Positions 1,272-63,032 of a DNA stretch of 64,000 bases are shown one piece after another. The number at the start of each line of letters is the position of its first letter. Within the stretch, counting starts at the first letter, position 1. The notes under the pieces were generated by a model. It did not search any database and had not been told where the DNA came from. It saw only the letters and a program-made list of their open reading frames with translations. Made by a program: the position numbers and the translations under genes. The DNA lies in IMG/VR virus record IMGVR_UViG_3300042691_019444, positions 1-64,000 of that record; one strand, given 5' to 3'. The stretch comes from a virus.

Positions 1272-3377
1272 ATGACCGCGAAGAGAGAGGTAATTGATGC
1301 GATGTTTCCTAGTCGGAGAACGGCTAGGAAACAGATGACCGCAACACGTGTTGCGGTACAGGTAGAACAGAGTGCACCTGAAGTGGATTACTCCAGGTTT
1401 GTTCAGGGTGCCAATCCCGAACAGACCGAGGCAATCCTTCATCGCGAAGGCCCCTTGGGGGTGTTTGCGGGTGCAGGTAGTGGCAAGACCAGAGTTCTGG
1501 TCTCCCGCGTAGGCGCACTCATCGCTTCTGGTGTTAGGCCAGAAAGAATCGTCAGCGTGACCTTCAGTAAGAAGGCTGCTGATGAGATGGGGGAGCGAGC
1601 AGCCAAGATGGGAATCCAAGGAGCGGTGTTTGCCACATGGCATTCCCTCGCGTTGCGTATGCTTCGCGAGGATGGGACGGAGTGGGGCACGGTCTGGAGT
1701 GTAGACGACACGGACCGGGCCAAACTCATTCTCAAGTCCGATGTACTCGGATACAAGGGAATGGGATGGAATGGTGCTGACTTGGGTCAAGTAGCGTCTT
1801 TCATCTCGTTCTGTAAGTCTCAGTTGTGGGCTGCTAATTCATCAGAGGCACAAGCCTACGCTGAGAAGGAGTTCGCTAAGGACTCTAAGAAGGCAATTGA
1901 AGCCTTCAAGCGGTATGACGTGGAGTTGGCTGATAACCAACTACTCACGTTCGATGACATGCTGGTGTTTGCCTATCAGTGGCTCTCCGTGGAGGAGAAC
2001 CGCAGACGATGGGCATCTAAGTGGGATTACGTCTTGCAGGATGAAGCGCAAGACGCCAACCCCGCACAGATGAAACTCGCGTCTATGTTGGCACGGGACC
2101 ATCGAAACTACATGATCGTCGGTGACCCTGCGCAAAGCATCTACGGATGGCGCGGGTCAAAACCAGAGTACATTACGACTTTCGCTTCCGTGTGGGAGGG
2201 TGCCAAGGTCGTGTGTATGAATCGCAATTACCGTTGCGGTTCACGCATTGTTGACGTCGCTAACGCGGTTATCACCAAGGCTGCAATCAAGCTCCCTGAC
2301 GACCTTATTGCAGAAGGTGGTTGGGAAGGTAACGTGTCATGGCGTCAGTGTAGTGACATGGATGCCGAAGCCAATTTCGTGGCTGCGGAAATTCTGGAGC
2401 GCCACAATACCGACCTAACACCCCTAGAACACAATACGGTTCTCTTCCGGACTAACGCGCAGTCTCGCGCGTTGGAAGAGGCTCTGCTCGCCCGTCAGAT
2501 CCCTTACGTCGTAGTGGGGGGTGTGTCGTTCTATGAGCGTAGAGAGGTGAAAGACATTCTAGCATACCTAAGAGTCGCATTGGGTAAGGGCAATCAGGAC
2601 GAGAACGTGCGGCGATGTCTCAATTCTCCATTCCGATACTTGGGAGCGGCATTCGCAGATAAGCTCTCAAGGTCATTGGTGGCGTTCCGTGGGAACGTTG
2701 CTAGTGCGGCGTACGATGCCTGTAATGCTACGCGTGTGCAGGCACGCCAGCGGGCATCCGTGATGGAATGGGTAGGTATTCTGGAGTCAGTAGTTGCGTA
2801 TGAGAACCGCCTCCATGATAAGGAATCAAGCGAAGAGAACGCAGGAACTCTCATTGATGCTTTGGTTGAGAAGACCAAATACATCGAGTGGCTGAAGCGT
2901 GACCAGGGGGAAGAAGGGTTGGAGTCGTCGCATGTTGCCAACATCAAGGAGTTGGCACGTGTTGCGACGCGCTTTGCGACTGCCACTGAACTACTCACAT
3001 TCATTGACAACACCATCGCCGCTGCGGAGCGGCAACGTAAGCAGAAGGAGCAGAAGGGGCGAGTTCTTCTCATGTCCATTCACCGATCTAAGGGTCTCGA
3101 ATGGCCTAACGTGTTCGTTATTGGTGCCGTGGAGGGGATTCTTCCCCACGGCAGGGGCGAGCCTGAAGAGGAACGCAGACTGTTCTATGTGGCTTGCACG
3201 CGAGCGGCACGCAGACTCTACATTACCTCTCCTAAGAGCATTGCACTCAAGGGAGGAGTCAAAGAAGTGAAGGTGTCCCAATTCGTTCGGGATGCCGGAT
3301 TAGGGGATGAGTTGGACTACTTTACTGACCTTGCCAGGGAGCGGGGGGAAGATGAGGAGCTGTGCGGTATCGCATAG
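1272..3377 (+). CDS. SF1A (UvrD/Rep-like) DNA helicase
   Basis: The 701-residue protein carries the full set of UvrD-family helicase motifs: Walker A GAGSGKT (about 67-73), motif Ia SVTFSKKAADEM, DEAQD in motif II, GDPAQSIYGWRG in motif III, NYRC in motif IV, HRSKGLEWPNV in motif V and YVACTRA in motif VI. It should be a 3'-5' ATP-driven DNA unwinding enzyme of phage replication or repair. I chose ATG 1272 because GGAGG lies at 1261-1265; the upstream ATG at 1233 lies inside the leader hairpin. A copy of the 18-bp palindrome sits in frame near the N-terminus and is translated as TATRVAV. A later ATG at 1335 has no clear ribosome binding site. Confidence 0.95.
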   Translation: MTAKREVIDAMFPSRRTARKQMTATRVAVQVEQSAPEVDYSRFVQGANPEQTEAILHREGPLGVFAGAGSGKTRVLVSRVGALIASGVRPERIVSVTFSKKAADEMGERAAKMGIQGAVFATWHSLALRMLREDGTEWGTVWSVDDTDRAKLILKSDVLGYKGMGWNGADLGQVASFISFCKSQLWAANSSEAQAYAEKEFAKDSKKAIEAFKRYDVELADNQLLTFDDMLVFAYQWLSVEENRRRWASKWDYVLQDEAQDANPAQMKLASMLARDHRNYMIVGDPAQSIYGWRGSKPEYITTFASVWEGAKVVCMNRNYRCGSRIVDVANAVITKAAIKLPDDLIAEGGWEGNVSWRQCSDMDAEANFVAAEILERHNTDLTPLEHNTVLFRTNAQSRALEEALLARQIPYVVVGGVSFYERREVKDILAYLRVALGKGNQDENVRRCLNSPFRYLGAAFADKLSRSLVAFRGNVASAAYDACNATRVQARQRASVMEWVGILESVVAYENRLHDKESSEENAGTLIDALVEKTKYIEWLKRDQGEEGLESSHVANIKELARVATRFATATELLTFIDNTIAAAERQRKQKEQKGRVLLMSIHRSKGLEWPNVFVIGAVEGILPHGRGEPEEERRLFYVACTRAARRLYITSPKSIALKGGVKEVKVSQFVRDAGLGDELDYFTDLARERGEDEELCGIA
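1338..1357. repeat. CACGTG palindrome, copy 1 (exact, inside helicase CDS)
   Basis: ACCGCAACACGTGTTGCGGT, a perfect 20-bp palindrome. Here it lies within codons 23-29 of the helicase gene and is read as TATRVAV before the conserved domain begins. Confidence 0.95.
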
Positions 3378-4012
3378 CCGACGGGGTACCTGCTCGGTCT
3401 GCAAAGATGGGCGGGTATCCAACTCCAACGTTCGATCAATATCTACATGCTCTAAGGGACGGCCGCATAACGTTCGACCGGTTCCTTAGTGCGACCACCA
3501 TGCGATGGTGGGCATTGTCGGCCACGCTCTATCGTAAATGGGGCAAGGACGCCTCGGGGGTGGATGTGGCTGACTTGTACCAGGAGCTAACTCTAGCAGC
3601 CTGGACGTTCGTGTCGCAATGGGACGCTACACGTGGAACCACGTTGGAGCAGTTCGTTGTATATAATGCAATGGACAAGGCCAAGAAGTGGTTACACGTG
3701 CAACGCGCGGCCAAACGTAGCGGTAATGCGGATGGCAATCCATCTCGGCGTGAAGTCTGTTCTGATTCAATCAAGCGCAACGTAGGCGTGATTGAATCAG
3801 AACTAACGAGGTTTGATGGGTACCGGGAAGCTATGAGTAAGGCCGACGAAAAATTCGGTTGCATCATCCATAGCCTCGCGCGTACAAATAGTGTCACAAT
3901 GACTGCGAGGGAGATTTACAAGTCAAAGGAGCGTAGGCGGGAGTATCACCTATGCTCTCTTGAGCATGCACATCGCGTGGTGCGGAGTGTGCTCAAGCGA
4001 CTTGCGTCCTAA
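3362..4012 (+). CDS. putative sigma-70 region 2-like protein
   Basis: Residues about 65-115 (VDVADLYQELTLAAWTFVSQ, then WDATRGTTLEQFVVYNAMDKAKKW) match the pattern of sigma-factor region 2: DLYQE..L..W.....FD..RG.....Y....  .....K. The 170-215 segment is basic and could hold a helix-turn-helix like region 4. This suggests a phage-encoded promoter-recognition factor, although other sigma-like phage regulators would look the same. The GTG at 3362 overlaps the helicase end; ATG at 3407 is an alternative with a poor ribosome site. The 18-bp palindrome follows its stop. Confidence 0.55.
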   Translation: MRYRIADGVPARSAKMGGYPTPTFDQYLHALRDGRITFDRFLSATTMRWWALSATLYRKWGKDASGVDVADLYQELTLAAWTFVSQWDATRGTTLEQFVVYNAMDKAKKWLHVQRAAKRSGNADGNPSRREVCSDSIKRNVGVIESELTRFDGYREAMSKADEKFGCIIHSLARTNSVTMTAREIYKSKERRREYHLCSLEHAHRVVRSVLKRLAS

Positions 4013-4013
4013 C

Positions 4014-4033
4014 ACCGCAACACGTGTTGCGGT
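4014..4033. repeat. CACGTG palindrome, copy 2 (exact)
   Basis: Exact copy extended by one further pair (C at 4013, G at 4034) to a 22-bp palindrome. It is followed by CGGCATAA (4046-4053) and AGGAGG before the gene at 4080, so it could control the HTH protein. Confidence 0.95.
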
Positions 4034-4045
4034 GTTGGGCAAATG

Positions 4046-4079: not shown

Positions 4080-5342
4080 ATGGCGGCGAAGAAATGTTAC
4101 GGCGTGGTTCTGGCAAAGGCGAACGAGGAAAGTGTCAATGCGGCGCTCAGCGCTGCGGACCTACCGGAAGACGGCACCCTTGAGGAGAAGATCGGGCGTC
4201 TCGTAGCGTACTACCGCAAGGAAGTTTCGAAAGAGAACCTTGCGAAGTGCGACAACTGCGAGGGTGTTTCCGACGTCAGTCTGGACAAGTGCCCATATTG
4301 CGGTGAGGGCGACGAAGAAGAGGAGTCCGAAGAGGAGGAGTCCGAAGAAGAGGAGTCCGAAGAGGAGGAGTCCGAAGAGGAGGACGAGGAAGAAGAGTCC
4401 GAAGAGGAGGACGAGGAAGAAGAGGAAGAAGAAGCGCCACCCCCACCCCCAAAGAAGGAGAAGGGTAAGAAGGCTGAACCGGAGCCCAAACCCGCAAAGG
4501 GTAAGAAGGCTGAACCGGAGCCCGAACCCAAACCAGCAAAGGGCAAGAAAGCAATCGATGCCGTCACTACGGCAATCGCACCTGCGAAGAAACCAGGGCG
4601 TCCACCGAAGGCTGAGATCGTCAAGGCTGAGGATGGTCCTGATCCAAAGTACAAGGTCGGTGACCTGGATACGGCAATTGAGCGCGTGAAGGGCCTTCGA
4701 GCAAAGGGCGAAGAGACCCTGTACGACCTTGGGAAAGAGCTTGCGGCCATTCATGGGGAGCAATTGTGGAAGCTCCGCCAGGACAAGGATGGGAATCCTG
4801 CCTATAAGGGGTTCGGTCAGTTCTGCGCGGCCGAGGTGGGGTTGTCACACACAACAGTATTCCAACTCATCGATGTGTCGACGAAGTTCGACCGCAAGCT
4901 GTTCAGTGAAGTCGGCCATAAGAAGTTGGCACTTGTGCTTCAGGCTCCCGAGGCCGTGCAACCTGAACTCATCAAGAAGGTGAGCACCGGAGTTTCTCAC
5001 CGAGACCTTCTCACGGAAGTGAAGGCCAAGCGCGACGAGGCAGGGGTTTCCAAGCGTAACACCGGTCGCAAGGAGATGCCGAAAGGTAAGGCCCCCAAGA
5101 GCAAGAAGACTGAGCCTGCAATCACCATTGCGGCGGTCATTGGCAAGAAGACCATCAAGCTCTACCAGGACCCCAAGAAGTCCGGTAAGAAGGAGTTGGT
5201 CCCCGCCACAGACCTGGCTCAGAACCCATTCGGGTACGATGAGTTGGGCAACGGTGTGCGAGAATACTTCAGCATCCAAAAGGGTCCTGATGGGGCTCTG
5301 ATTCTGCACATCGTGCGTAAGCGTGAAGGCAAAGAGAAGTAA
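4080..5342 (+). CDS. zinc-ribbon / acidic-repeat / ParB-like HTH DNA-binding protein
   Basis: The start follows AGGAGG (4069-4074). The 420-residue product is modular: a C4 zinc ribbon (Cys 57, 60, 71, 74), an almost purely Glu/Ser tract at about 77-120, Pro/Lys repeats (KGKKAEPEPKPA), an AT-hook-like KKPGRPPK near 170, then a globular part with FGQFCAAEVGLSHTTVFQLI (about 245-264) followed by KKLALVLQAPEAVQPELIKK. That layout resembles the central HTH of ParB/KorB proteins, where a recognition helix precedes a short A-L-L helix and a V..G.S.RDL segment. No CTPase N-terminal domain is visible. It is probably an abundant DNA-binding protein, and the best local candidate for reading the dispersed palindrome. 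Confidence 0.7.
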   Translation: MAAKKCYGVVLAKANEESVNAALSAADLPEDGTLEEKIGRLVAYYRKEVSKENLAKCDNCEGVSDVSLDKCPYCGEGDEEEESEEEESEEEESEEEESEEEDEEEESEEEDEEEEEEEAPPPPPKKEKGKKAEPEPKPAKGKKAEPEPEPKPAKGKKAIDAVTTAIAPAKKPGRPPKAEIVKAEDGPDPKYKVGDLDTAIERVKGLRAKGEETLYDLGKELAAIHGEQLWKLRQDKDGNPAYKGFGQFCAAEVGLSHTTVFQLIDVSTKFDRKLFSEVGHKKLALVLQAPEAVQPELIKKVSTGVSHRDLLTEVKAKRDEAGVSKRNTGRKEMPKGKAPKSKKTEPAITIAAVIGKKTIKLYQDPKKSGKKELVPATDLAQNPFGYDELGNGVREYFSIQKGPDGALILHIVRKREGKEK

Positions 5343-5363: not shown

Positions 5364-5402
5364 AAAGGTCATCTATCTACCCGATAGGTGACCTTTTTTT
5401 TT
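5364..5402 (+). terminator. Rho-independent terminator
   Basis: AAAGGTCA-T-CTATC pairs with GATAG-G-TGACCTTT over a short loop, followed by nine T residues. It closes the transcription unit of the HTH gene before the DNA polymerase gene. Confidence 0.9.
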
Positions 5403-5433: not shown

Positions 5434-8112
5434 ATGCGCTATGTTGGCGGATTCGTCGATAGGGACTATACGACGCTCGTTTACAGGACTGCGGACGGCG
5501 TTCGGAGAGGGAGGCAGTTTCCGGTTGAGTGGGTGACGTATTTCAAGCTCTCGCAACTAGGGCAATACCGAAACGATATTGAGCGCTCTACGGCGGTACT
5601 TGGCGCGCGTGTGGAAAACGATGAGTGGTTGCGGGTTAGGTGGGCAACAAGGGATGCCCGCTATGCCGTGACAGCAACAACTGACCGCCAAGGGAACGAC
5701 ATACCGAATTGGTTTCGCATGAGGGGCATTGTTCCGTATGAGAATGATGTGAGTCCCGTACGTAGGTTCTTTTCGGATAACAACGCAGAGACGGAACCGT
5801 GGCCGAGAGTCGCATATCTGGATATCGAAACTGACTCACGTTTACCGTTCTCTAAGCGTGAGCAGATGCGGGTGTTGTGTTGGACGGTAGTGGCGGGGTG
5901 TGATTGTCCTGAGAAGAACATCCAAGAGGGGGACGTGATATTCGAGGGATTGGAAGAGTTCACAGATGAGTCTGAGAAGGAGTTGCTAGATAAGCTGTGG
6001 ACTGCACTGGAACCGTTTGATGTGGTGGCGGCATGGTATGGGGACGGGTTTGACTTTCCGGTCATCAGGGCACGCACCCTGAAGGTTGGATTGTCGATTC
6101 AGTTTGAGTATTGGCGGTTCGTGGATCATCTGCGCGTGTATGAGCTTCTCAATAAGAACGTTGCGGAGACTGGAGATGAGAAGTCTTCGCTTGCCCTGAA
6201 TAGCGTGTGTCAGGCTGTGTTGGGTAAAGGTAAGCACGACTTCGATGCAAGTAAGACGTATCAGGCTTGGGAATCCGGTGGAGCAGAGCGTGAGCGGATG
6301 TTCGCTTATTGCCGTCAAGATACTAAGCTGTTGAAGGAGTTAGAGGATAAGACCGGATACCTGAAGACGTTCGGTACTATGTGTGCGGCGTGCAGGCTGT
6401 TCATGGAAACCTATTCACTGAAGTCTTCAATTCAGATGGATGGGTTCATGCTCCGGTTGGGTCGTGAGAGTAACTACCACTTCCCCTCAACGTTTGGATT
6501 CACGCCGTTGAACGAACTTACGTATAAGGGTGCATGGGTGATGAGCCCTAAACTGCACGGCATAATTCCCAACGTCCATGTGGCAGACTTTAGTTCACTG
6601 TACCCGAGCATCATGATTAGTTGGAATATGAGCCCGGAGACTGTGAACCATGAAGCTCCAATCAACGGCCCAATACCCCCGAATTCATGTAGGGCGCCAG
6701 GGACCGGAGTGGTGTTTAGGACCGACGTAGAAGGGTTGTTGCCTAAGGCGCTGAACGTGTTGTTGGGTATGCGTAAGGAGTGGGCCGATAAGAAGTCACA
6801 ATGCGTCCCAGGTACGCCTGAGTTTCAGGCAGCCGACCGTTGGAGCATGGCCTATAAGGTATTGGCAAATTCGTTCTACGGTGTAGTGGGGAGTACCAAT
6901 AGTCGATACCATGACCGTCGCATCGCTGAGTCTGTTACACAGACAGGCGCATGGTTGAATCAGACTACGGTGTTCGAGGCTGAGAAGGTTGGGATTATGG
7001 CCTTCTACGGTGATACGGATTCGTTTTTTGCCAATCAGGTAAGTAAGGATAGGTTCGCGAACTTCGTGGAGTGGTGCAATGTTGAGTTGTACCCAAGACT
7101 ACTCAAAGAACGAGGGTGCACAATCAATAGAGTGAAGTTGGCGTATGAGAAGGAATTCGCAGCCCTAATCCTCCTTGCAGCTAAGAAGTATTTTGGGTTC
7201 TATCAGCACTATAAGGGGAAGCCTGCTACGGCTAAGTCCAAACCTGAAGTGAAGGGGATGGAGTATCGGAGGGGGGATTCAATTGCTATTGCACGTGAGA
7301 TGCAGGGGCGCGTGATTGACATCTTCCATAAGGGAGTACAGTACGACGACAACGGCAACGTGAAGGGGTTCGTTGCCCCTGAACCAACTGACGTGTTGCC
7401 AATTCTGGAAGAGTACCGGGATAGGACGTTGAGTGGAAACCTTGATCTGAACGACATTGTGTTGGCTCAGTCATTGACTCAGCCCATATCCGAATATAAG
7501 GCGAAGACGCCGCCAGCCCATATCCGGGTTGCGATGATGTTGCGGGAGCGCGGTAAGGACGTTAGTCCGGGCACCCGTATTCGATATGTCGTAATCGACG
7601 GGTCGAAGTCTCCGAAGGTTGTGATTCCAGCGGAAGACTGGACTGGTGAATATGACTGCTATGCGGTTTGGGAAGATAGGTTGTTTCCGCCGACCGGGAG
7701 AGTGTTGGAGGTAGCGTTCCCTAACCATAACTGGAAGCCGTGGTTTAGGGTACGGCCAAAGAAGCGACGGGGAGCTACCGCCAAGGAGCAGCCAAGCCTA
7801 CCGTTGCACAACCCCAAGGCAACGCCACCCAAGCCCGTTATGGTGCCACCCAAGCCCGTAGCACCGCCACCTATGCGCCCCACCCCCCTAACCGTGCGCA
7901 TCAACGCCACAACCCCTGATAGCAGGCAAGTAAGACGCGCAATCCTATCGCTCAAACCTCTCATTGAATCGTGCGAGCCGGGTGACACCAAAGTCATCAT
8001 TGAGGTATCGACTGGTGATGCGATTATGACGTTGTTGGTGACCAATCCCATAACGCCAACCGCCCAATTGATTGCAATCTTGAAGAAGAAAGGATGGTTA
8101 CATGCGTCGTAA
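5434..8112 (+). CDS. family B DNA polymerase
   Basis: The 892-residue protein has the 3'-5' exonuclease motifs Exo I DIET (130-133), Exo II with GFDFP (about 205-209) and Exo III YCRQD (292-296), then polymerase motif A DFSSLYPS (385-392), motif B KVLANSFYG (475-483) and motif C YGDTDS (525-530). It is a proofreading replicative polymerase. After the catalytic domain comes a Pro/Lys linker (PPKPV repeats, about 790-825) and an extra C-terminal domain of about 80 residues with KVIIEV and KKKGWLHAS, which I do not recognise. ATG 5434 was chosen for its GGAGG at 5424-5428. Confidence 0.97.
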   Translation: MRYVGGFVDRDYTTLVYRTADGVRRGRQFPVEWVTYFKLSQLGQYRNDIERSTAVLGARVENDEWLRVRWATRDARYAVTATTDRQGNDIPNWFRMRGIVPYENDVSPVRRFFSDNNAETEPWPRVAYLDIETDSRLPFSKREQMRVLCWTVVAGCDCPEKNIQEGDVIFEGLEEFTDESEKELLDKLWTALEPFDVVAAWYGDGFDFPVIRARTLKVGLSIQFEYWRFVDHLRVYELLNKNVAETGDEKSSLALNSVCQAVLGKGKHDFDASKTYQAWESGGAERERMFAYCRQDTKLLKELEDKTGYLKTFGTMCAACRLFMETYSLKSSIQMDGFMLRLGRESNYHFPSTFGFTPLNELTYKGAWVMSPKLHGIIPNVHVADFSSLYPSIMISWNMSPETVNHEAPINGPIPPNSCRAPGTGVVFRTDVEGLLPKALNVLLGMRKEWADKKSQCVPGTPEFQAADRWSMAYKVLANSFYGVVGSTNSRYHDRRIAESVTQTGAWLNQTTVFEAEKVGIMAFYGDTDSFFANQVSKDRFANFVEWCNVELYPRLLKERGCTINRVKLAYEKEFAALILLAAKKYFGFYQHYKGKPATAKSKPEVKGMEYRRGDSIAIAREMQGRVIDIFHKGVQYDDNGNVKGFVAPEPTDVLPILEEYRDRTLSGNLDLNDIVLAQSLTQPISEYKAKTPPAHIRVAMMLRERGKDVSPGTRIRYVVIDGSKSPKVVIPAEDWTGEYDCYAVWEDRLFPPTGRVLEVAFPNHNWKPWFRVRPKKRRGATAKEQPSLPLHNPKATPPKPVMVPPKPVAPPPMRPTPLTVRINATTPDSRQVRRAILSLKPLIESCEPGDTKVIIEVSTGDAIMTLLVTNPITPTAQLIAILKKKGWLHAS

Positions 8113-8628: not shown

Positions 8629-8648
8629 ACCGCAACACGTGTTGCGGT
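8629..8648. repeat. CACGTG palindrome, copy 3 (exact)
   Basis: Exact 20-bp palindrome a few bases after the stop of the preceding gene. It is followed by a terminator and a CGGCATAA motif before the next gene, so here it is about 140 bases from the start codon. Confidence 0.95.
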
Positions 8649-8784: not shown

Positions 8785-10038
8785 ATGGCCGGACTATCAT
8801 TGGAAGACTTTCTCGGGCACGCAACGAGAGCACAGGGAGGGAAGAACAAATACCTATCAAAGTGGAAGAAGAACAACCCTCCAACGGTGCTGGTGTGGTT
8901 GCATACTAAGGCGATCATCATGCCTCTTTGGAGACATGGAGTGCCTCGGTTGATGGAAGTCAAAGATGAGGATGGGGATAAGCGGATCGAAGTATGGGGT
9001 GGGGATTGGAGTTGCTGGGAGCCTGAAGAGGTATTGAAGCAACAATACTTCCGAGACCGGGAAACGGGCGAGCGTGAAGTACCTCCTACAATCTGCCCTG
9101 CGTGCAGGTTGGTTGAGCATGTAAGGGAGCGGGTTGAGAGTGGGAATCTGAATTGGACCACACCAATCTTCAAGTTCGTCGGCGACGATGCATCGAAGAA
9201 GGTCATCATTCATGCGGCCGGTATGTATAACGGCTTCAACGGAGACCTGAGTGATGAGGAGAAGGACGAGCTAAAGAAGCACCGAATCTTCAGAAACGAT
9301 GTGTGGCGTGAGAACATGATGGCGAAGCTCTCATACGGCTTCGTGGTTGTGGACAACTCCAACCTAACGGCGGGACCTCAGATTGCAATCGAGACCTCAT
9401 CGTTGGGAGACTGCGTCAAGAAGGTAATTGCGGACGCCATGATGGAGGCAGAGGACGAGGGCAACCCGTATACGAATCCGTACGCTATTCGGTGGGCATA
9501 CGATGCAAATGCGAAGGACTTGAATAAGAAGTATGCGGCCAACAAAATGAGCAAGGTTCCGTTCACAGAACAGGTAAGGAAGCTCATTGTAGACACCGCT
9601 CCCCCAGACCTGTCGCGACTGGATTACAAGCTCGACCCAACCGCCCTAAAGGAGCAGTTGCAGGAAGTGTGTTTGGTCAAGGACATTCCGTGGTCCGAGA
9701 TTTTTGGTGATGCTGAGAAGGCATGGCCTAAAATCAAGGAACGCCAAGAGGCTAAGAAGGAGAAGGTTACTGACAAGTCGACGGAGTTCAACACCGACGA
9801 ATTTGAGGATACCCCCAAAGGACCGCCGTCTCGGAAGGAGACGAAGAGTAAGAGTGATAAGAAACCAACGGTGGCGGCACTGAAGCCCAAGACGGTTGCT
9901 ACCAAGAACGTTGAGTGTTGTCCGAGTTGTGGAGAGCCAATTACAGCGTCGGATAAGAATGAGGGCATTTGCCCGCATTGTGGGGAGTTGTTCAACGTCG
10001 TCGATAAGGTGTTGGGTAAGGACGAATTACCGTACTGA
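8785..10038 (+). CDS. putative ssDNA-binding / replication accessory protein with C-terminal zinc ribbon
   Basis: The 417-residue protein starts after ACGGAG and lies between the polymerase and recombinase genes, where T4-type phages keep their single-stranded DNA-binding protein. The first 290 residues have mixed beta-type sequence and a CPAC pair (about 99-102); then comes a charged linker (KEKVTDKSTEFNTDEFEDTP) and a clear C4 zinc ribbon CPSCGEP...CPHCGE near the C-terminus. I see no catalytic motif. The SSB assignment rests on context and domain layout and is only moderately likely; a primase or helicase loader partner is an alternative. Confidence 0.5.
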   Translation: MAGLSLEDFLGHATRAQGGKNKYLSKWKKNNPPTVLVWLHTKAIIMPLWRHGVPRLMEVKDEDGDKRIEVWGGDWSCWEPEEVLKQQYFRDRETGEREVPPTICPACRLVEHVRERVESGNLNWTTPIFKFVGDDASKKVIIHAAGMYNGFNGDLSDEEKDELKKHRIFRNDVWRENMMAKLSYGFVVVDNSNLTAGPQIAIETSSLGDCVKKVIADAMMEAEDEGNPYTNPYAIRWAYDANAKDLNKKYAANKMSKVPFTEQVRKLIVDTAPPDLSRLDYKLDPTALKEQLQEVCLVKDIPWSEIFGDAEKAWPKIKERQEAKKEKVTDKSTEFNTDEFEDTPKGPPSRKETKSKSDKKPTVAALKPKTVATKNVECCPSCGEPITASDKNEGICPHCGELFNVVDKVLGKDELPY

Positions 10039-11301: not shown

Positions 11302-12050
11302 ACATGAATATGAAGATGCTTGTCACCAGTGATTGGCATGCCGATGCAGTGACGAATGGGATTGAGCGGTACAATGAGATAGAGAGCATTGCGTTGGAGA
11401 TGGTGAAGACTGCAATCGAAGAACGTGTGAGTGTCTTCGTGTTTGCGGGGGACCTGTGCAATCCCGGATTAGGCGGTCGCACCATCATGGCAATCTCACT
11501 CGCAAGTAAGGTTGCCAATATGCTGGATGATGTAGGTATTAGGTCGATATGGTTGGCGGGTAATCATGATGTGGTTGATGTCGATTACCCTCTATCGTCA
11601 CTGATGCCCCTATGCACGCAAGGCAATTCCAATATCAATGTGGCGCAAGTGCCGATGGTCGTGGAGTTGGCACACGTCCCATTCAGGTTCTTATGTTTGC
11701 CGTATGTGTCAAAGTACCTAGGTGCGCGCATGTACGAGCATCATAATTATGTCGAGGCTCTGACTGCTGGGTTTAGTGCTCATGATTGGAAGTACACAAT
11801 AGTCGTCAGCCACATGACGGCATTGGACGTCACGGGGTTAGAGGTTGGGACGGAGAGCAATGAGTTTCGGTACGGAAAATCGTACAAGTTGAATCTGCCC
11901 TCTTACCTTGACAGGGGCGTAAGGTTGGTGATTCAAGGGCATTTCCATAAGCATCAACGGCATGGGGGGTTGTTTGTACCGGGGTCGTTAGTGCGGCTCG
12001 GGTTTGGGGAAGAGAAGCATCACCCCCACTACCACATTCTATCCATTTGA
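11298..12050 (+). CDS. SbcD/Mre11-like metallophosphoesterase nuclease subunit
   Basis: Motifs of the Mre11/SbcD phosphoesterase are all present in order: TSDWHA (DxH), FAGDLCN (GD), LAGNHDV (GNHD), VVSHMT, GHFHKH (GHxH) and VPGSLVRLGFGE. At 250 residues it is close to phage gp47-type proteins, shorter than cellular SbcD. It should be the nuclease partner of the SbcC-like ATPase at 12498. The ATG overlaps the recombinase stop. The 18-bp palindrome follows within one base of its stop codon. Confidence 0.92.
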   Translation: MNMNMKMLVTSDWHADAVTNGIERYNEIESIALEMVKTAIEERVSVFVFAGDLCNPGLGGRTIMAISLASKVANMLDDVGIRSIWLAGNHDVVDVDYPLSSLMPLCTQGNSNINVAQVPMVVELAHVPFRFLCLPYVSKYLGARMYEHHNYVEALTAGFSAHDWKYTIVVSHMTALDVTGLEVGTESNEFRYGKSYKLNLPSYLDRGVRLVIQGHFHKHQRHGGLFVPGSLVRLGFGEEKHHPHYHILSI

Positions 12051-12069
12051 CCGCAACACGTGTTGCGGT
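12050..12069. repeat. CACGTG palindrome, copy 4 (exact)
   Basis: Exact 20-bp palindrome whose first base is the last base of the SbcD-like stop codon. It abuts the GGAGGG ribosome site of the next gene, so binding here could control its translation or transcription. Confidence 0.95.
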
Positions 12070-15837: not shown

Positions 15838-15857
15838 ACCGCAACACGTGTTGCGGT
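15838..15857. repeat. CACGTG palindrome, copy 5 (exact)
   Basis: Exact 20-bp palindrome directly upstream of GGGAGG and the start at 15869. Confidence 0.95.
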
Positions 15858-17169: not shown

Positions 17170-17495
17170 AACGGCCAGTTGAGAGGAAGTCGCGCGTACG
17201 TGCGGATAAGATCAACCATGCACTGGCAAACGGTACACCTAAGGCATTCCACTACGAAGGAGTGACCATCAAGGGGGTATGGTACGACATTACGGTTCAG
17301 AAGATGGATTCCGGTAGATGGTGTTGGGAGGCAAAGCGGGTGATGTGTGAGACGGATACGGAGAACGATCTCGGTATCCCGCTGTCGTTGGTTGCCATAC
17401 TGAAAGAGGAACCGACCGTTACGTACGACACTCCAATTGAGTCGTTGGAGGCGGCGTATAGGTTGCTAAGTAGTCCGCAACACGTGTTGCGGTAG
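17136..17495 (+). CDS. hypothetical protein ending in a palindrome copy
   Basis: The 119-residue product has a central beta-rich segment (FHYEGVTIKGVWYDITVQKM) and a C-terminal end SPQHVLR, which is encoded by palindrome copy 6. The repeat therefore supplies the last residues and the stop (TAG) of this gene, in a different reading frame from the usual ATRVA. Function unknown. Confidence 0.6.
   Translation: MGTICQFPTRVKRPVERKSRVRADKINHALANGTPKAFHYEGVTIKGVWYDITVQKMDSGRWCWEAKRVMCETDTENDLGIPLSLVAILKEEPTVTYDTPIESLEAAYRLLSSPQHVLR
17475..17492. repeat. CACGTG palindrome, copy 6 (exact core)
   Basis: Exact 18-bp core overlapping the last codons of the preceding gene and followed at once by the TAGGAGG site of the gene at 17504. 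Confidence 0.95.
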
Positions 17496-24832: not shown

Positions 24833-24852
24833 ACCGCAACACGTGTTGCGGT
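24833..24852. repeat. CACGTG palindrome, copy 7 (exact)
   Basis: Exact 20-bp palindrome after the LamG gene, about 10 bases before the AAGGAG of the gene at 24876. It follows the largest gap between copies (7.3 kb, the long tail genes). Confidence 0.95.
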
Positions 24853-27390: not shown

Positions 27391-27410
27391 ACCGCAACAC
27401 GTGTTGCGGT
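27391..27410. repeat. CACGTG palindrome, copy 8 (exact)
   Basis: Exact 20-bp palindrome directly followed by GGAGGAACC and ATG 27420. Confidence 0.95.
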
Positions 27411-29694: not shown

Positions 29695-29713
29695 ACCGCA
29701 ACACGTGTTGCGG
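29695..29713. repeat. CACGTG palindrome, copy 9 (exact) joined to CGGCATAA
   Basis: Exact 18-bp core (29696-29713) that runs directly into CATAAC, making a shared CGGCATAA (29711-29718), then GTGGAGG and ATG 29736. This composite occurs four times in the window. Confidence 0.95.
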
Positions 29714-29735
29714 CATAACGCATGTGGAGGTTGTT

Positions 29736-32451: not shown

Positions 32452-32471
32452 ACGGCAACACGTGTTGCGGT
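32452..32471. repeat. CACGTG palindrome, copy 10 (one mismatch)
   Basis: ACGGCAACACGTGTTGCGGT: one mismatch in the left arm. Followed by CGGCATAA at 32478 and GAGGAGG before the start at 32527. Confidence 0.9.
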
Positions 32472-34310: not shown

Positions 34311-34329
34311 ACCGCAACACGTGTTGCGG
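34311..34329. repeat. CACGTG palindrome, copy 11 (exact) joined to CGGCATAA
   Basis: Exact 18-bp core (34312-34329) fused to CGGCATAA (34327-34334), followed by AGGAGG and ATG 34352. Same composite as copies 9, 15 and 19. Confidence 0.95.
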
Positions 34330-34351
34330 CATAACCGGTTAGGAGGTTGTG

Positions 34352-37922: not shown

Positions 37923-37942
37923 ACCGCAACATGTGTTGCGGT
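37923..37942. repeat. CACGTG palindrome, copy 12 (one mismatch)
   Basis: ACCGCAACATGTGTTGCGGT: the central CACGTG is CATGTG. Followed by AGGAGG and the large terminase gene. Confidence 0.9.
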
Positions 37943-40635: not shown

Positions 40636-40655
40636 ACCGCAACACGTGTTGCGGT
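40636..40655. repeat. CACGTG palindrome, copy 13 (exact)
   Basis: Exact 20-bp palindrome directly followed by GGAGG and ATG 40666. Confidence 0.95.
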
Positions 40656-41323: not shown

Positions 41324-41343
41324 ACCGCAACCCGTGTTGCGGA
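41324..41343. repeat. CACGTG palindrome, copy 14 (one mismatch)
   Basis: The core reads CCGCAACCCGTGTTGCGG: left-arm mismatch only. It merges with GGAGGTGG before ATG 41351. A decayed relative lies 58 bases upstream inside the previous gene. Confidence 0.85.
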
Positions 41344-43763: not shown

Positions 43764-43782
43764 ACCGCAACACGTGTTGCGG
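43764..43782. repeat. CACGTG palindrome, copy 15 (exact) joined to CGGCATAA
   Basis: Exact 18-bp core (43765-43782) fused to CGGCATAA (43780-43787), then AGGAGG and ATG 43805. Confidence 0.95.
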
Positions 43783-43804
43783 CATAACAGGTTAGGAGGC
43801 ATTC

Positions 43805-45285: not shown

Positions 45286-45875
45286 GCCCCCCTAGGTGGT
45301 TGACTAAGTTCCCATATAGGGGTGTCGGCATATGTTCGTGGTGCGGTAAGGCCACCCCACCGAAACGACGATACTGGTGTTCAAAGGAATGTGTTGAAGA
45401 GTGGATGATCCGTAGCAATGCCACGAGCCTACGTAGGGCAACGTTCGAACGGGACAGGGGCGTGTGCGCATTGTGCGGGGTCGACACAGAGGCAGTACAC
45501 AACGAGCTAACCAAACTCTACTACGATGCCCTAGCGAGGCAAGTAGGGGCAGGAACGTATCATGCCAGTCATGCCCTAGCTAAGCGCATTCCCGACTCAG
45601 ACCCCTACAGGGTTCGGATGCGTGAGTTGGGTAGTCCTAAGTGGATGAAGCGCTCTCTGTGGGAGGCCGATCATATTCAGACGGTTGTGGAGGGTGGCGG
45701 GGGTTGTGGGTTGGAGAACATTCGCACGTTGTGTTGGAAGTGTCATGCTGCGGAGACGGCTAAGCTACATGCCCGTCTGAAGGAGTTTCGTAGGCATTGC
45801 CCTCCTGATGTGGAGGCGTGGTTGGATGAACTAGGTACCGCAACACGTGTTGCGGCAGATAAGGAGGCCCCATGA
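45282..45875 (+). CDS. HNH endonuclease
   Basis: The 197-residue protein has an N-terminal zinc ribbon (CSWCGKATPPKRRYWCSKEC), a second CALCG (about 61-65), and the HNH core WEADHIQTVVEGGG, then LENIRTLCWKCH. It should nick or cut DNA, either as a free homing-type nuclease or in packaging or host-DNA attack. Its C-terminal TATRVAADKEAP comes from palindrome copy 16, which overlaps the last codons. Confidence 0.8.
   Translation: MSPPRWLTKFPYRGVGICSWCGKATPPKRRYWCSKECVEEWMIRSNATSLRRATFERDRGVCALCGVDTEAVHNELTKLYYDALARQVGAGTYHASHALAKRIPDSDPYRVRMRELGSPKWMKRSLWEADHIQTVVEGGGGCGLENIRTLCWKCHAAETAKLHARLKEFRRHCPPDVEAWLDELGTATRVAADKEAP
45838..45855. repeat. CACGTG palindrome, copy 16 (exact core, inside HNH CDS)
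   Basis: Exact 18-bp core read in frame as ATRVA near the C-terminus of the HNH nuclease, followed by AAGGAGG for the gene at 45872. Confidence 0.95.
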
Positions 45876-46237
45876 AGTGCAGTATGATCGTTCCGAGTGA
45901 AGTAGTGGCCGAACACTTACACGCTCGCGCGTGTGCGTGGGTGAAACGTCTATTGGAGAAGTGTGAGGTACAGGACGGGAAGGTCGTTATACCAGAGGAG
46001 CTAGTTAGGTCACTAAGCAATGCCGGGAAGGATTACCAACAACTAAACCCCATAGACCGATCCATTCTGCGGTATGAGGCTATGATGCTGATGCTGGCAA
46101 TCACAAGGCCAGAGTGGCACGGGCGTAAGTTGGTACGGTGTGGGGAGTGCAGTAGGCGCGTCAATGGTGTATGTGAAAACCATGGGTCCGAATGTGATGC
46201 GGACTGGGGTTGTGTGGAAGGATTGGAGGCACAATGA
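45872..46237 (+). CDS. hypothetical protein with C-terminal Cys cluster, 121 aa
   Basis: AAGGAGG precedes the start. The helical body is followed by RCGECSRRVNGVCENHGSEC at about 90-109 and a further Cys, a probable zinc or disulfide knot. It overlaps the first ParB gene by four bases, so it may be translated with the modification cassette. Function unknown. Confidence 0.55.
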   Translation: MKCSMIVPSEVVAEHLHARACAWVKRLLEKCEVQDGKVVIPEELVRSLSNAGKDYQQLNPIDRSILRYEAMMLMLAITRPEWHGRKLVRCGECSRRVNGVCENHGSECDADWGCVEGLEAQ

Positions 46238-46968
46238 AGAAGGCAAAGTCTGATAAGCAAATCGTCGGGACCGTTGAGCATGTTGGCATCGATACGTTGA
46301 AGCCCAACAAGTGGAACCCAAATAAGATGACTACCCGCAAGATGGATAGTCTGAAACAAGGACTGATGGAGGAGGGTTGGCTATCGTCTCAGACGTTGCT
46401 GGTGTGGGGTACCGATAAGGACGGAGTTGCCCACAACGTCATTATTGATGGTGAGCATAGGTGGCGGGCAGCGAAGGCTTGTGGGTTCAAACAGGCTCCT
46501 ATTGTGGTGCTGAACAACATCACTGAGATGGAGGCAAAACGGCTAACCATCAAGCTCAATCAACGACGTGGTGAGTTTGACAGTACGATGCTTGGAGACC
46601 TGTTGAAAGAGGTTGCACGCGAGACGGATGCAGCGCTGTCGCTGGGCTTTGAGGATGACTATGTGAGCAAGCTCATTGCATCTACGGATAAGACCGTAAG
46701 TGCGGCAGTATCGGCAGCAACTCCTCCCCCTGCACCGCCACCCCCTCCTGCTCCACCGCCACCTCCTCCAACTAAGGTGGACGGCATCAAGGGCGTACAA
46801 CCAAACACCCGCATTCCGGTCGTCTTCTACATGGATTCAGATGAGGATGCGACTTTGGTGCGTGAAGTGTTTGCGCACGCTCAACGGCAATTCGAGTCTG
46901 ACAGTAAGTTGCTGTTGAGTGCCGCCAAGTACATCAAGGCCAATCCGACCGCTATTCCAAAGGGGTAA
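46234..46968 (+). CDS. ParB/sulfiredoxin-fold (ParB N-terminal domain) protein 1
   Basis: The 244-residue protein has the ParB N-domain pattern: VGIDTLKPNKWNPNKMTT, then MDSLKQGLMEEGW and IIDGEHRWRAAKACG with the GEHR motif. No helix-turn-helix follows; instead a Pro-rich linker (PPPAPPPPPAPPPPPP, about 166-182) leads to a small C-terminal domain. Stand-alone ParB domains of this type occur in phage base-modification and mobile-element loci and can act as NTPase or phosphotransfer enzymes. It starts the seven-gene cassette and overlaps the following radical SAM gene. Confidence 0.85.
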   Translation: MKKAKSDKQIVGTVEHVGIDTLKPNKWNPNKMTTRKMDSLKQGLMEEGWLSSQTLLVWGTDKDGVAHNVIIDGEHRWRAAKACGFKQAPIVVLNNITEMEAKRLTIKLNQRRGEFDSTMLGDLLKEVARETDAALSLGFEDDYVSKLIASTDKTVSAAVSAATPPPAPPPPPAPPPPPPTKVDGIKGVQPNTRIPVVFYMDSDEDATLVREVFAHAQRQFESDSKLLLSAAKYIKANPTAIPKG

Positions 46969-48305: not shown

Positions 48306-48325
48306 ACCGCAACACGTGTTGCGGT
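48306..48325. repeat. CACGTG palindrome, copy 17 (exact)
   Basis: Exact 20-bp palindrome directly after the radical SAM stop, before GGAG and ATG 48336. It separates two halves of the modification cassette. Confidence 0.95.
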
Positions 48326-51710: not shown

Positions 51711-52444
51711 AACGAAGACTGCAAAGCACCGCAACACGTGTTGCGGTCAAACCCGGTACGGTGCACCCGGTTGAGTACGTTCCCTATAAGGACCTAAAGA
51801 AGTCCGATTACAACCCTCGCAAGATGCCAAAGGCAAAGCTGGAGCGACTAGCTACGAACATTGCATTGTTCGGGTTCGTTGAGAACGTAGTTGTACGGAA
51901 GGAGACGGGGGAGATTATTGGTGGGCATCAGCGCATTGCTGCGCTTGAGTTGTTGGCGTCGGGTAAGTTTACGCCCAAGAATGCTGAAGGTAAGGAGATT
52001 GAATTCACACCCATCGTCAAGGTGCCAGTCATATACGTTGAGGGGTTGTCGGACTTTGACGTAAAGAATCTCAATCTCAGTCTGAACAGCATCAGTGGTG
52101 AGTGGGATTCCGATAAGCTGGGTACGCTTATCAATCAGATGGTCAGTGAGGTGGAGACCGCAATGGACAACATTGCGAAGGATGCACTTGCATATCTGTC
52201 GCCCAGCGGGTTGTCCACCGATGAGCTGAATGCAATCATCAACAAGGAATCTGAGGACGGGTTGGCGCCTGAACGTACAACCGGTGTCCCCAAGCTAAAC
52301 CTTGAGTTTACGTCGAAGGAACTTAGGGATGCATTCAAGGCGTTCGTTGGTGAGGAGAAGCAAGACGGGATTCCGAGCGGGGACCTACTTGCTAAGCGGT
52401 TGGGAATTGAGGTTGTGAAGAAGCGGAAGTCGAAGCGTACCTAA
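51707..52444 (+). CDS. ParB-domain protein 2
   Basis: The 245-residue protein has VEYVPYKDLKKSDYNPRKMP, LERLATNIALFGFVENVVVR and EIIGGHQRIAAL, the ParB N-domain with GGHQR in place of GEHR. No helix-turn-helix is evident after it. Residues 8-14 (TATRVAV) come from an in-frame palindrome copy. Two different ParB-domain proteins framing one cassette is unusual. The gene ends the cassette. Confidence 0.85.
   Translation: MKRRLQSTATRVAVKPGTVHPVEYVPYKDLKKSDYNPRKMPKAKLERLATNIALFGFVENVVVRKETGEIIGGHQRIAALELLASGKFTPKNAEGKEIEFTPIVKVPVIYVEGLSDFDVKNLNLSLNSISGEWDSDKLGTLINQMVSEVETAMDNIAKDALAYLSPSGLSTDELNAIINKESEDGLAPERTTGVPKLNLEFTSKELRDAFKAFVGEEKQDGIPSGDLLAKRLGIEVVKKRKSKRT
51728..51747. repeat. CACGTG palindrome, copy 18 (exact, inside ParB-2 CDS)
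   Basis: Exact 20-bp palindrome translated as TATRVAV just after the ParB-2 start codon. Confidence 0.95.
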
Positions 52445-52636
52445 TTCGGCATCTCCACCGCTTAGTACCAAACTCCCTCCCCCGATCACAACAATCCGTC
52501 AACATACTAGGACGTTCAATACCGTGCTTTGAGCGCGGCATACGTAGTCCTATGCTCGCCAAGTAGACGGCTATTGCTAGGGCCAGAAGGTGGATTGCTG
52601 CGTTCATTAGTGGGTTGTACTAGGTACGGGCCCCTA
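52445..52636. other. longest gene-free stretch in the window
   Basis: About 230 bases separate the cassette from the next gene start, and this part before palindrome copy 19 holds no convincing + strand gene. A minus-strand frame (52607 to 52392) could encode a 71-residue peptide with a hydrophobic N-terminus (MNAAIHLLALAIAVYLASIG), but it lacks a ribosome site. No tRNA or terminator is evident. Confidence 0.5.
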
Positions 52637-52654
52637 CCGCAACACGTGTTGCGG
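52637..52654. repeat. CACGTG palindrome, copy 19 (exact) joined to CGGCATAA
   Basis: Exact core fused to CGGCATAA (52652-52659), then GTGGAGG and ATG 52677. Same composite as at copy 9, with an almost identical leader (CATAACGCA.GTGGAGGTTG). Confidence 0.95.
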
Positions 52655-52676
52655 CATAACGCACGTGGAGGTTGTG

Positions 52677-55591: not shown

Positions 55592-55611
55592 ACCGCAACA
55601 CGTGTTGCGGT
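55592..55611. repeat. CACGTG palindrome, copy 20 (exact)
   Basis: Exact 20-bp palindrome directly followed by AGGAGG and ATG 55624, at the head of the head-gene module. Confidence 0.95.
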
Positions 55612-58561: not shown

Positions 58562-59713
58562 ATGGCCGATCCATCTCCCAAACGTAAACGCCCCCAAGTA
58601 GAATCCGAAACAGTGCGAGCGCAACGCCCGGTCGTGTACTCGCGCGCGGCCGCAACACGTGTTGCGGAAGCCGAGTTATTGAATCGGAGACAAGCCACCG
58701 ATTACGCGAGCAAAGTCGGAATCGATAAGGTCAAAAAGACTTTGAACGATGCGCGTGAAGACCTAAAGGATCGAACGCGTAAGCTGCATCCGGCCTTAGG
58801 TGACGACACCTTCACAGCCATGCATCTGAAAGCAACTATGATTCAGATTGATATTGTGGTTGGGAACATGAAGCCGGATATTGCGTCAGCCGTGAGTGAG
58901 TCAAAGCAGATTGCGGCAGATAGGGCGCAAGAGAACAGTCTGAAGACGCTAAGTGCCATTGACTCACGGTTTGAAGGGTTGGTTAGGGGCATGCCGTTGG
59001 AGGTTGCGATGCAGTTCGACCCGGATGCCGTGGGTAAGAATGCATCGATACTTAGACGTCTAATGGAATCACCAGAATCCGACTCAGTAGGGAATGCCAT
59101 TATGGAGCGGTATGGGACCGCCGTAGTGGGTGCATTTGAGGATAAGTTGAGAGTCGGTATGGTGACCGGTAAGTCGTTTGCGGAAATGCGCGAGGACTTG
59201 ATAGCGGAGTCTACTTGGCTACAGTCACAACCCATGTATTGGGCTCAACGGATAGTGCGCACTGAAGTGATGGGTGCCTATTCGAGAGCTGCATTGGAGA
59301 ATGCTAAAGATGCCAATAAGATTCTAGGCGATATGGTCAAGATTCTGGTGGCGGGGTTTGATGACCGTACCGCATGGGACTCATATCAGGTGCATGGACA
59401 AATTAGGAAGTTGAGCGAGCCGTTTGAGTGGATAACCCGAGACGGCCAACGCATAGCCTATATGACTCCCCCTAACCGCCCCAATGACCGCGAAACCGTA
59501 ATCTATCACAGGGTTGTGATGCCAATTCCTGATGACCTGAAACCGGTATCTGATGCGGAATATGAGGCGGTGTTTGTGAAGCAATGTAAGAGCAAGAAGA
59601 ACAAGTCTCCATCACCCCCCGCACGCCCGCGTATGACAACCGTCCCCCTAACATGGTTTGGGACTGGTATTCCGGACGACATGCAATCCGATTTCGAAGC
59701 GGCTAGTGAGTGA
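58562..59713 (+). CDS. MuF-like head morphogenesis protein
   Basis: The 383-residue protein has the Mu F signature: YWAQRIVRTEVMGAYSRAAL followed by a GFDDRTAWDSYQVHGQIRK segment. It should be a minor head protein acting with the portal in early assembly. Residues about 30-36 (AAATRVAE) come from palindrome copy 21. It begins ten bases after the portal stop with no strong ribosome site. Confidence 0.85.
   Translation: MADPSPKRKRPQVESETVRAQRPVVYSRAAATRVAEAELLNRRQATDYASKVGIDKVKKTLNDAREDLKDRTRKLHPALGDDTFTAMHLKATMIQIDIVVGNMKPDIASAVSESKQIAADRAQENSLKTLSAIDSRFEGLVRGMPLEVAMQFDPDAVGKNASILRRLMESPESDSVGNAIMERYGTAVVGAFEDKLRVGMVTGKSFAEMREDLIAESTWLQSQPMYWAQRIVRTEVMGAYSRAALENAKDANKILGDMVKILVAGFDDRTAWDSYQVHGQIRKLSEPFEWITRDGQRIAYMTPPNRPNDRETVIYHRVVMPIPDDLKPVSDAEYEAVFVKQCKSKKNKSPSPPARPRMTTVPLTWFGTGIPDDMQSDFEAASE
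58650..58667. repeat. CACGTG palindrome, copy 21 (exact core, inside MuF CDS)
   Basis: Exact 18-bp core translated as AATRVA, in frame near the N-terminus of the MuF-like protein. Confidence 0.95.
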
Positions 59714-59933: not shown

Positions 59934-60547
59934 TGGCTGAACAATCTCGTGATGATAAGGGGCGATTTGCCGGGGGATCTGGAGGGTCTTCTGGTTCATT
60001 TGGTAAACAGATGAAAGCATTTGGGGAAAGGGGTGGTGCGAATGCTGAACGCGGATTGGCAAATATAGGGCAATCCGCGAAAATGAAAGGGCACGACAAA
60101 GCATTCAAAGATGCGAGTGCCCGCGCAAACACTGAGAATACATCTCAATCGCACCGCGAAGCGGCATCGCGAGCGAAAGCTGCGGGTGAAGTTGCAACGC
60201 GTGAACGACAACCCGCCAGTGAATACAAACGCGCTCACGAAGAGCATAGTGAAAAGGCCGCCGATTTAGAACGTAAGGAGATTCAATCATTAGGCGATAA
60301 GTCGACACACACGGCTCGTGCCGAAGAGGCCAGTAAATCTGCTGATAAGGTAGGAGCTTCGGCGAAAACGCGTGACGATCATAATCGGGCATTTGATGCA
60401 CATTCGCACGCATCAACCATGCACGGTAAAGCGCGAAACGAAGCAATGCGAGCAGGCAAAAAAGACTTAGCAGAACGGCACGGGTCTGAAATGAAGAGGC
60501 ACTATAACGCGGCTGAGAAACATAGCGATATTGCGGATTCACTATAA
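59933..60547 (+). CDS. Ala/Lys/Glu-rich head-module protein, 204 aa
   Basis: The N-terminus reads RDDKGRFAGGSGGSSGSFGK, a motif often at the start of phage proteins in the portal to capsid region, and the rest is a His/Ala/Glu/Lys helix rich in short repeats (HREAASRAKAAGEVATRERQ). It may be internal virion protein or scaffold-associated. The start is coupled to the previous stop. Confidence 0.6.
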   Translation: MAEQSRDDKGRFAGGSGGSSGSFGKQMKAFGERGGANAERGLANIGQSAKMKGHDKAFKDASARANTENTSQSHREAASRAKAAGEVATRERQPASEYKRAHEEHSEKAADLERKEIQSLGDKSTHTARAEEASKSADKVGASAKTRDDHNRAFDAHSHASTMHGKARNEAMRAGKKDLAERHGSEMKRHYNAAEKHSDIADSL

Positions 60548-60565
60548 CCGCAACACGTGTTGCGG
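60548..60565. repeat. CACGTG palindrome, copy 22 (exact core)
   Basis: Exact 18-bp core beginning one base after the stop codon of the preceding gene, followed by GGAGAGG and the start at 60577. Confidence 0.95.
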
Positions 60566-60576
60566 AGAGGCCAACA

Positions 60577-63012: not shown

Positions 63013-63032
63013 ACCGCAATACGTGTTGCGGT
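63013..63032. repeat. CACGTG palindrome, copy 23 (one mismatch)
   Basis: ACCGCAATACGTGTTGCGGT: one left-arm mismatch. It lies between the scaffold and capsid genes, upstream of the capsid promoter candidate. Confidence 0.9.

Follow-up and report, generated by a model that had tools for sequence, protein, structure and literature searches.

Most members of a family of tailed phages carry a palindrome of their own that recurs at even spacing along the genome, alongside a conserved ParB-type protein in which no CTPase domain was found. This combination appears to be new; a literature search that took in few of the subscription papers found no published description of such palindrome arrays. Our leading, though still tentative, explanation is that this phage ParB/Noc-like protein reads the private palindrome and organizes or marks the phage genome. 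The component claims stand at different strengths: the arrays with their even spacing and private sequences, the conservation of the protein and its predicted fold are direct results of the analysis, the ParB-type protein is probably the reader of the palindrome, and, if it is, an architectural or marking role has slightly better than even prospects relative to a regulatory one. A preliminary description of this DNA, which had proposed a ParB-like protein as the palindrome's reader, was right in its core and is partly supported as a whole.

Source record and gene neighborhood

The stretch of DNA analyzed here, hereafter the window, comprises bases 1-64000 of the virus record IMGVR_UViG_3300042691_019444 (92,970 bp in total; labeled G000). 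Among the products of the window are a UvrD-type helicase, a protein that weakly matches sigma-70 region 2, a family B DNA polymerase, and RecA-like and SbcD-like proteins. The record also has genes for terminase, portal, major head and baseplate wedge proteins and for a DnaB-like helicase. This gene content identifies G000 as a tailed phage, and the baseplate gene indicates that the tail is probably contractile. The closest named phages by head protein (three records in total), namely Streptomyces phage Kromp and the Komagataeibacter phages phiKX1 and phiKX2, are 27-30% identical to it.

The gene for the ParB/Noc-type protein lies between the sigma-like and polymerase genes, with a palindrome before it and a terminator-like hairpin behind it (Table 1). 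This palindrome, earlier given as 22 bp long, does exist and is in fact a perfect palindrome of 26 bp. Copies of the motif GCGGCATAA, which is perhaps a phage promoter element, also lie at window positions 29710, 34326, 43779, 52651 and others, often overlapping or adjoining the palindrome ahead of a ribosome binding site. Two other genes of the record deserve mention. The product of window 8785-10038, perhaps a single-strand DNA-binding protein, carries at its C-terminus a zinc ribbon to which Pfam families match weakly, and is encoded near the polymerase in 18 of 19 records. Another protein (L003 9467-10210; record 87467-88213), with no Pfam match at E <= 1, is distributed like the ParB-type protein, being found in 19/19 versus 0/3 records, one of the three being cut short.

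Domain architecture of the ParB/Noc-type protein

From N- to C-terminus, the chain has an N-terminal domain followed by a zinc ribbon, then the ParB/Noc-type DNA-binding domain and finally a C-terminal beta domain. G000 shows all the features first noticed in the sequence: the open reading frame, the zinc ribbon, the acidic tract, the AT-hook-like motif and the palindrome upstream. Across the 19 family proteins, conservation extends to the zinc ribbon, whose four cysteines are invariant in the alignment, and to the ParB-type domain; judged by eye, G000 alone has the AT-hook-like motif and a long Glu/Ser tract, the homolog in G039 having an acidic stretch that is shorter.

A single-sequence model from residue 192 onward had a mean pLDDT of 66.9, and structural comparison of its first 130 residues gave Z 7.8-9.9 for ParB, Spo0J and Noc, 7.7 (1r71) and 5.8 for KorB, and 7.4 for Raf1. 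AlphaFold with seven homologs gave a pLDDT of 80.6 overall. Helical models may score Z 13 in such comparisons without kinship. The best 11 structural matches of this second model comprised eight ParB, Spo0J or Noc chains (Z 9.4-11.1) and three of Raf1, the Rubisco accumulation factor (Z 8.1-10.3), and the match that followed reached only Z 3.7. Seven of the eight ParB/Spo0J/Noc chains superimpose with an rmsd of 2.5-3.1 over 94-110 residues and the eighth, 6s6h, with 5.2; the Raf1 chains range from 3.9 to 9.0. KorB is missing among the matches to the seven-homolog model, Foldseek returned zero matches at E <= 0.001, and in Pfam HTH_ParB matched one of the 19 members (E 0.0017) and DUF3102 four (best E 0.028). 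The central domain is thus of the ParB/Noc type by predicted structure, with a faint link in sequence. A helix-turn-helix is predicted at residues 245-269, so that structure prediction bears out the earlier claim of a helix-turn-helix of the ParB/KorB type. In ParB, the recognition helix is described as inserting into the major groove, with helices 6 and 8 contributing contacts (excerpt of PMC7383237).

The CTPase domain ParB_N is absent from the Pfam families listed for the 420-residue chain at E <= 1 and from those listed for the 19 family proteins at E <= 0.1; sequence comparison places a different domain and the zinc ribbon in its stead in the N-terminal part. ParB_N does occur on separate proteins in 12 of the 19 records at E <= 0.001 (above the Pfam cut-off in eight), and also in records devoid of palindromes. 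Those of G000 (46210-46968 and 51707-52444, the second under the Pfam cut-off) both lack an HTH match. Taken together, these proteins and the ParB-type protein look like a ParB split across several genes, and it is a guess that they could cooperate.

Table 1. Features of the window around the ParB/Noc-type gene and copies of the palindrome
Feature	Position in window	Strand	Remarks
Weak sigma-70 region 2 protein, upstream neighbor	3362..4012	+	E 0.0015, below Pfam cut-off
26-bp perfect palindrome, upstream of ParB-type gene	4011..4036	.	copy of the genome-wide site
Putative promoter-like motif GCGGCATAA	4045..4053	+	10 copies on the record's + strand
ParB/Noc-type DNA-binding protein gene, 420 aa	4080..5342	+	intact ORF, SD AGGAGG; 18 homologs in related phage records
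N-terminal domain, SAP-like (weak profile match alone)	4107..4229	+	family profile vs Hcc-1 chain 2do1, which we take to be a SAP domain, E 0.13
Zinc ribbon, residues 57-74	4248..4301	+	C57-x2-C60-x10-C71-x2-C74
Acidic Glu/Ser/Asp tract, D78-E118 (41 residues)	4311..4433	+	peculiar to G000
AT-hook-like KKPGRPPK, residues 170-177	4587..4610	+	not conserved
ParB/Noc-type DNA-binding domain, residues 192-321	4653..5042	+	AF2 pLDDT ~88; ParB/Spo0J/Noc Z 9.4-11.1
Predicted recognition helix, residues 257-269	4848..4886	+	model helix H66-78; role by comparison with ParB alpha4 (excerpt of PMC7383237)
C-terminal beta domain, family-conserved	5112..5339	+	best structural match Z 3.7, no clear known fold
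Terminator-like hairpin and T run, 3' of ParB/Noc-type gene	5364..5396	+
Family B DNA polymerase, downstream neighbor	5434..8112	+
Palindrome copy	1338..1357	.
Palindrome copy	8629..8648	.
Palindrome copy	12050..12069	.
Palindrome copy	15838..15857	.
Palindrome copy	17474..17493	.
Palindrome copy	24833..24852	.
Palindrome copy	27391..27410	.
Palindrome copy	29695..29714	.
Palindrome copy	32452..32471	.	1 core mismatch
Palindrome copy	34311..34330	.
Palindrome copy	37923..37942	.	1 core mismatch
Palindrome copy	40636..40655	.
Palindrome copy	41324..41343	.	1 core mismatch
Palindrome copy	43764..43783	.
Palindrome copy	45837..45856	.
Palindrome copy	48306..48325	.
Palindrome copy	51728..51747	.
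Palindrome copy	52636..52655	.
Palindrome copy	55592..55611	.
Palindrome copy	58649..58668	.
Palindrome copy	60547..60566	.
Palindrome copy	63013..63032	.	1 core mismatch

The palindrome of G000 and those of its relatives

The 18-bp core, CCGCAACACGTGTTGCGG, occurs 34 times in the G000 record (29 exact copies and five with one mismatch), about 2.7 kb apart; the record holds no further copies at two or three mismatches and no match to the reversed control at up to three. In its 20-bp form the palindrome has 23 copies within the window at <=3 mismatches versus 0 in 100 shuffles. The genome collection contains it in 14 stretches, some of them near relatives, with one copy each (about four stretches would be expected by chance at even base composition, by arithmetic), and nowhere as a host-type array. 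A 17-kb fragment of an unrelated phage (G007; L301) has seven sites at <=1 mismatch with the two central bases left free, at 3469, 4439, 6265, 6943, 7519, 7607 and 8476; they are the G000 palindrome or a CACCTG-centered variant, and several lie ahead of ribosome binding sites.

Single-sequence searches for the protein's relatives found none in phage records or viral contigs (one match at E 1), and relatives were reached via the head (capsid) protein instead. Homologs were present in two of nine records and in 16 of 29 large ones, which together with G000 makes 19, and the gene order sigma-like, ParB-type, polymerase is kept in the records where it was read (G014, G016 and G030). Dominant palindromes were sought by a blind count of inverted repeats in each record, and sites were counted at up to three mismatches, or two where the reversed control had more than one match. 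A dominant palindrome, usually of a sequence of its own, was thereby found in 18 of the 19 large records with the protein, G000 included, and 17 of the 19 have 13-34 sites each. G034 has five copies of a 19-mer, and no palindrome was detected in G030, in which the protein gene is intact; the C-terminal domain of the G030 protein deviates from the family. The palindromes include TGGAACTCGAGTTCCA in G014, TTGGAAACCCGGGTTTCCAA in G016, ACGGATGATCGATCATCCGT in G019, GAGATAACACCGGTGTTATCTC in G027 and CCGACATCGATGTCGG in G039, and a core, GGAAACCCGGGTTTCC, is common to G016, G029 and G035. G024 (L195-L199) presents a double palindrome, ATCCAATTGGAT-CG-ATCCAATTGGAT, of at least 26 bp in 23 copies at <=2 mismatches. 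Since most phages of the family have their own palindrome, the reader and its set of sites must change together.

Neither of the two large records lacking a match to the protein, G033 (72.8 kb) and G045 (92.3 kb), showed a palindrome. The resulting co-occurrence, 18/19 versus 0/2, has a p of about 0.014 by arithmetic uncorrected for ancestry, and, as these two records also lack the polymerase module and may be incomplete, it may reflect plain ancestry. A third palindrome-free record, G040, was considered as lacking the protein and dropped from the count because the record stops within the polymerase gene, short of the neighboring position that the ParB-type gene would occupy. The shorter records without a match may not span that place; ten of them have a palindrome (G003, G010, G013, G015, G026, G032, G037, G041, G042 and G043), and none was found in G011, G012, G017, G022, G023, G046 and G047. 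A distant relative reached via the polymerase, G018, had no match to the protein and no palindrome in the 18 kb inspected out of its 70 kb. The 26 records with sites are partly non-independent, for G042 and G043 have one palindrome in common, and the identical palindrome and capsid scores of G037 and G038 suggest that the former is a fragment of the latter phage.

A C|G dyad is common to the 25 even-length palindromes listed, among which eight different centers occur. The known ParB-type sites parS and NBS are likewise palindromes with a C|G dyad. They are reported to differ from each other at positions 1 and 6 only (PMC7383237, in part).

Distribution of the sites and what it says of their role

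Using a gene caller trained on each record, we found 115 of 429 sites within genes (366 expected) and 314 outside called genes (about 63 expected). These figures replace those of an earlier, cruder caller, which had placed 248 of the 429 in genes (377 expected). The sites are spaced more evenly than the random mean in all 17 genomes tested (>75 kb and >=12 sites): the coefficient of variation of their spacing is 0.41-0.69, versus mean values of 0.89-0.96 when sites are placed at random and 1.04-1.46 when random placement is confined to intergenic DNA. Against uniform placement p is <0.05 in 16 of the 17 (G025, p 0.15), and against random intergenic placement it is <0.005 in every one, with a mean z of -2.9. 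Each of the gene families tested has a site ahead of it in at most six of 18 genomes. This evenness, together with the want of a preferred gene family, indicates that the sites are spread to cover the whole genome and are not tied to particular genes, and favors a Noc-like role in architecture or marking. The proposal of a genome-wide, rather than gene-specific, distribution is thereby upheld. Autoregulation, by comparison, is not supported as a family trait: a site lies within 250 bp before the ParB-type gene in only one of the 16 genomes with a measurable distance (G000 itself), and before the sigma-like gene, its upstream neighbor, in four of 18 (about 2.5 expected).

The main rival is a genome-wide transcription brake, which we regard as a rather unlikely alternative. 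Here, the palindromes would act as operators, akin to stoperators or those of KorB, that block or insulate transcription between long same-direction gene arrays and perhaps time early and late genes. It draws on the preference for gaps and the scarcity of sites in convergent ones: density is 1.35 sites per kb in same-direction gaps (268 sites) and 1.82 in divergent gaps (32 sites), versus 0.32 in convergent gaps, which hold only five. In same-direction gaps, the median site center is 20 nt past the stop and 45.5 nt ahead of the following start. Many sites of G000 also lie near the promoter-like motif, which is found in 11 of its 24 same-direction gaps (>=30 bp) with a site versus five of 26 without; the stoperators and the SPbeta repeat provide precedents. 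However, over all records this association is weak (32 of 260 gaps with a site versus 63 of 806 without, and zero in G021 and G028), clear as it is in G000. Moreover, the gaps with and without a site are alike in length (medians 95 and 103.5), no tested gene family consistently has a site before it, and the 115 sites within genes also speak against a brake. Finally, a search for tyrosine integrase (PF00589) found it in none of the 19 records, and so gave no sign of lysogeny such as the stoperators serve.

Does the ParB-type protein read the palindrome?

We compared protein and palindrome similarity over 17 genomes (excluding G030 and G034), using 8-base half-sites and permitting a single shift, which cost 1; for G014, the palindrome was entered with one extra base per end, outside the compared eight. 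The similarity of the ParB-type protein correlated with that of the palindrome at rho 0.41 (partial 0.39), the best of 40 gene families by a narrow margin; the sigma-like neighbor reached 0.34 and several structural and replication genes 0.29-0.33, whereas 31 of the 40 stayed below 0.25. In a permutation test uncorrected for ancestry, the whole protein reached p 0.001 and its DNA-binding domain p 0.019. The recognition helix alone showed no correlation (rho 0.06, p 0.29), nor did helices 3-4 (rho 0.14, p 0.12) or helix 6 (p 0.19), while in the rho comparison the C-terminal part gave 0.41. Thus, the signal sits elsewhere than a simple recognition code predicts, and no such code was found when sought over the 17 genomes. 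Overall, this tracking lends weak support to the ParB-type protein as the reader. Against that role stand G030, with the protein and no palindrome, G034, with its five sites, and G007, whose palindrome comes with no homolog in its 17 kb.

We consider it quite unlikely that the true reader is a different protein, such as the sigma-like neighbor or a host factor, to which the ParB-type protein is merely linked. The sigma-like protein has a comparable distribution, being present in all 19 records and not found in G033, G045 and G040 (which is cut off before the locus), and its rho is 0.34; the G007 fragment, which has the palindrome and shows neither a homolog nor a shared protein in its 17 kb, points the same way. 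However, sigma factors as a rule do not read long palindromes, the genome collection offers no array of the G000 palindrome, and the ParB-type fold suits palindromes with a C|G dyad.

A partition or replication element, with the sites serving as dispersed centromeres or origins, is very improbable. The ParB-type domain, the adjoining DNA polymerase gene and the ParB_N proteins encoded elsewhere in the genome would suit it, but ParA (PF13614) is found in none of the 19 records, which may be incomplete (control 14/14), and 13-34 would be a large number of origins for one genome. The lack of matches to ParA and to tyrosine integrase in these records would argue against partition and against classical lysogeny control. 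Least probable is an RNA hairpin near ribosome binding sites acting in termination, processing or translation control, for although many G000 copies lie directly ahead of a Shine-Dalgarno sequence, 60 of the 65 changed pairs in 45 variant sites (G013 and G034 excluded) break the symmetry and five keep it, which favors DNA over RNA pairing even if single changes could hardly be compensated, the listed terminator-like hairpins cover just one of six copies in the first 20 kb, Rfam has no match in the window, and sites also occur inside genes and in divergent gaps.

Returning to the ParB-type protein as the organizing or marking reader, we envisage that it would bind the 18-26-bp palindrome as a symmetric pair, and that occupancy of the evenly spread sites would organize or mark the whole phage DNA in the manner of Noc or MatP instead of switching single genes, with reader and sites changing together. 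A more elaborate, and unlikely, extension is a private genome-address system, in which each lineage would use its palindrome and a fast-diverging ParB-type reader, with the CTPase domain lost or split off (ParB_N now lying on separate genes), to tell its own DNA from that of the host or of co-infecting relatives when DNA is compacted, replicated or packaged; a new specificity would arise through coordinated replacement of the whole set of sites.

Comparison with known systems

In terms of fold, the nearest parallel is Noc of Bacillus, whose ParB-type DNA-binding domain (6y93) matches that of the phage protein at Z 10.1, and whose NBS has the C|G dyad seen in the phage palindromes. The CTPase domain of Noc is fused to the same chain. 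As far as excerpts of the cited papers go, NBS sites are scattered round the chromosome (PMC4331003), being dispersed like the phage palindromes, and Noc has CTPase activity and binds the membrane in a CTP-regulated manner (PMC8429893). On the phage chain, in contrast, no CTPase domain was found and a zinc ribbon is present instead, and the sites vary from phage to phage. If the phage protein does organize the genome as a whole, it would be an architectural protein of ParB-like kind whose own chain lacks a CTP switch.

KorB of plasmid RK2 also has a ParB-type domain (1r71, Z 7.7 with the single-sequence model). Several KorB operators are dispersed over this one replicon, and the switch of the KorB clamp is CTP-dependent. 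KorB is reported to change from a DNA-sliding clamp to a repressor with KorA (PMC11790492, in part). The phage protein differs in that no fused CTPase domain was found, and its candidate sites are more numerous and evenly spaced.

Among phage systems, the stoperators of Cluster A mycobacteriophages resemble the palindromes in being many per genome and phage-specific: there are up to 30 sites, and the motif varies between phages in correlation with the distance of their repressors (PMC6550527, in part). However, stoperators are described as asymmetric 13-bp sites mainly in one orientation (PMC6550527), bound by a monomeric repressor (excerpt of PMC9283540), whereas the sites here are palindromic; further, Cluster A phages have an integrase or parABS, while neither tyrosine integrase nor ParA was found in the 19 records here. 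MrpR of SPbeta, which binds the SPBRE repeat in different intergenic regions of its phage, offers the same pairing of a phage protein and a dispersed repeat that we propose here. It has a tyrosine-recombinase fold, unlike the predicted ParB-type fold of our protein, and functions in lysogeny control, with ten promoter regions named (PMC10516654, in part).

The family bears on the general question of how specificity can shift jointly in a DNA-binding protein and in its dozens of sites. The ParB/Noc specificity work, as excerpted, concerns two sites differing at two positions (PMC7383237), and this phage family offers more than 12 natural candidate reader-site pairs, with eight site centers, within one protein family.
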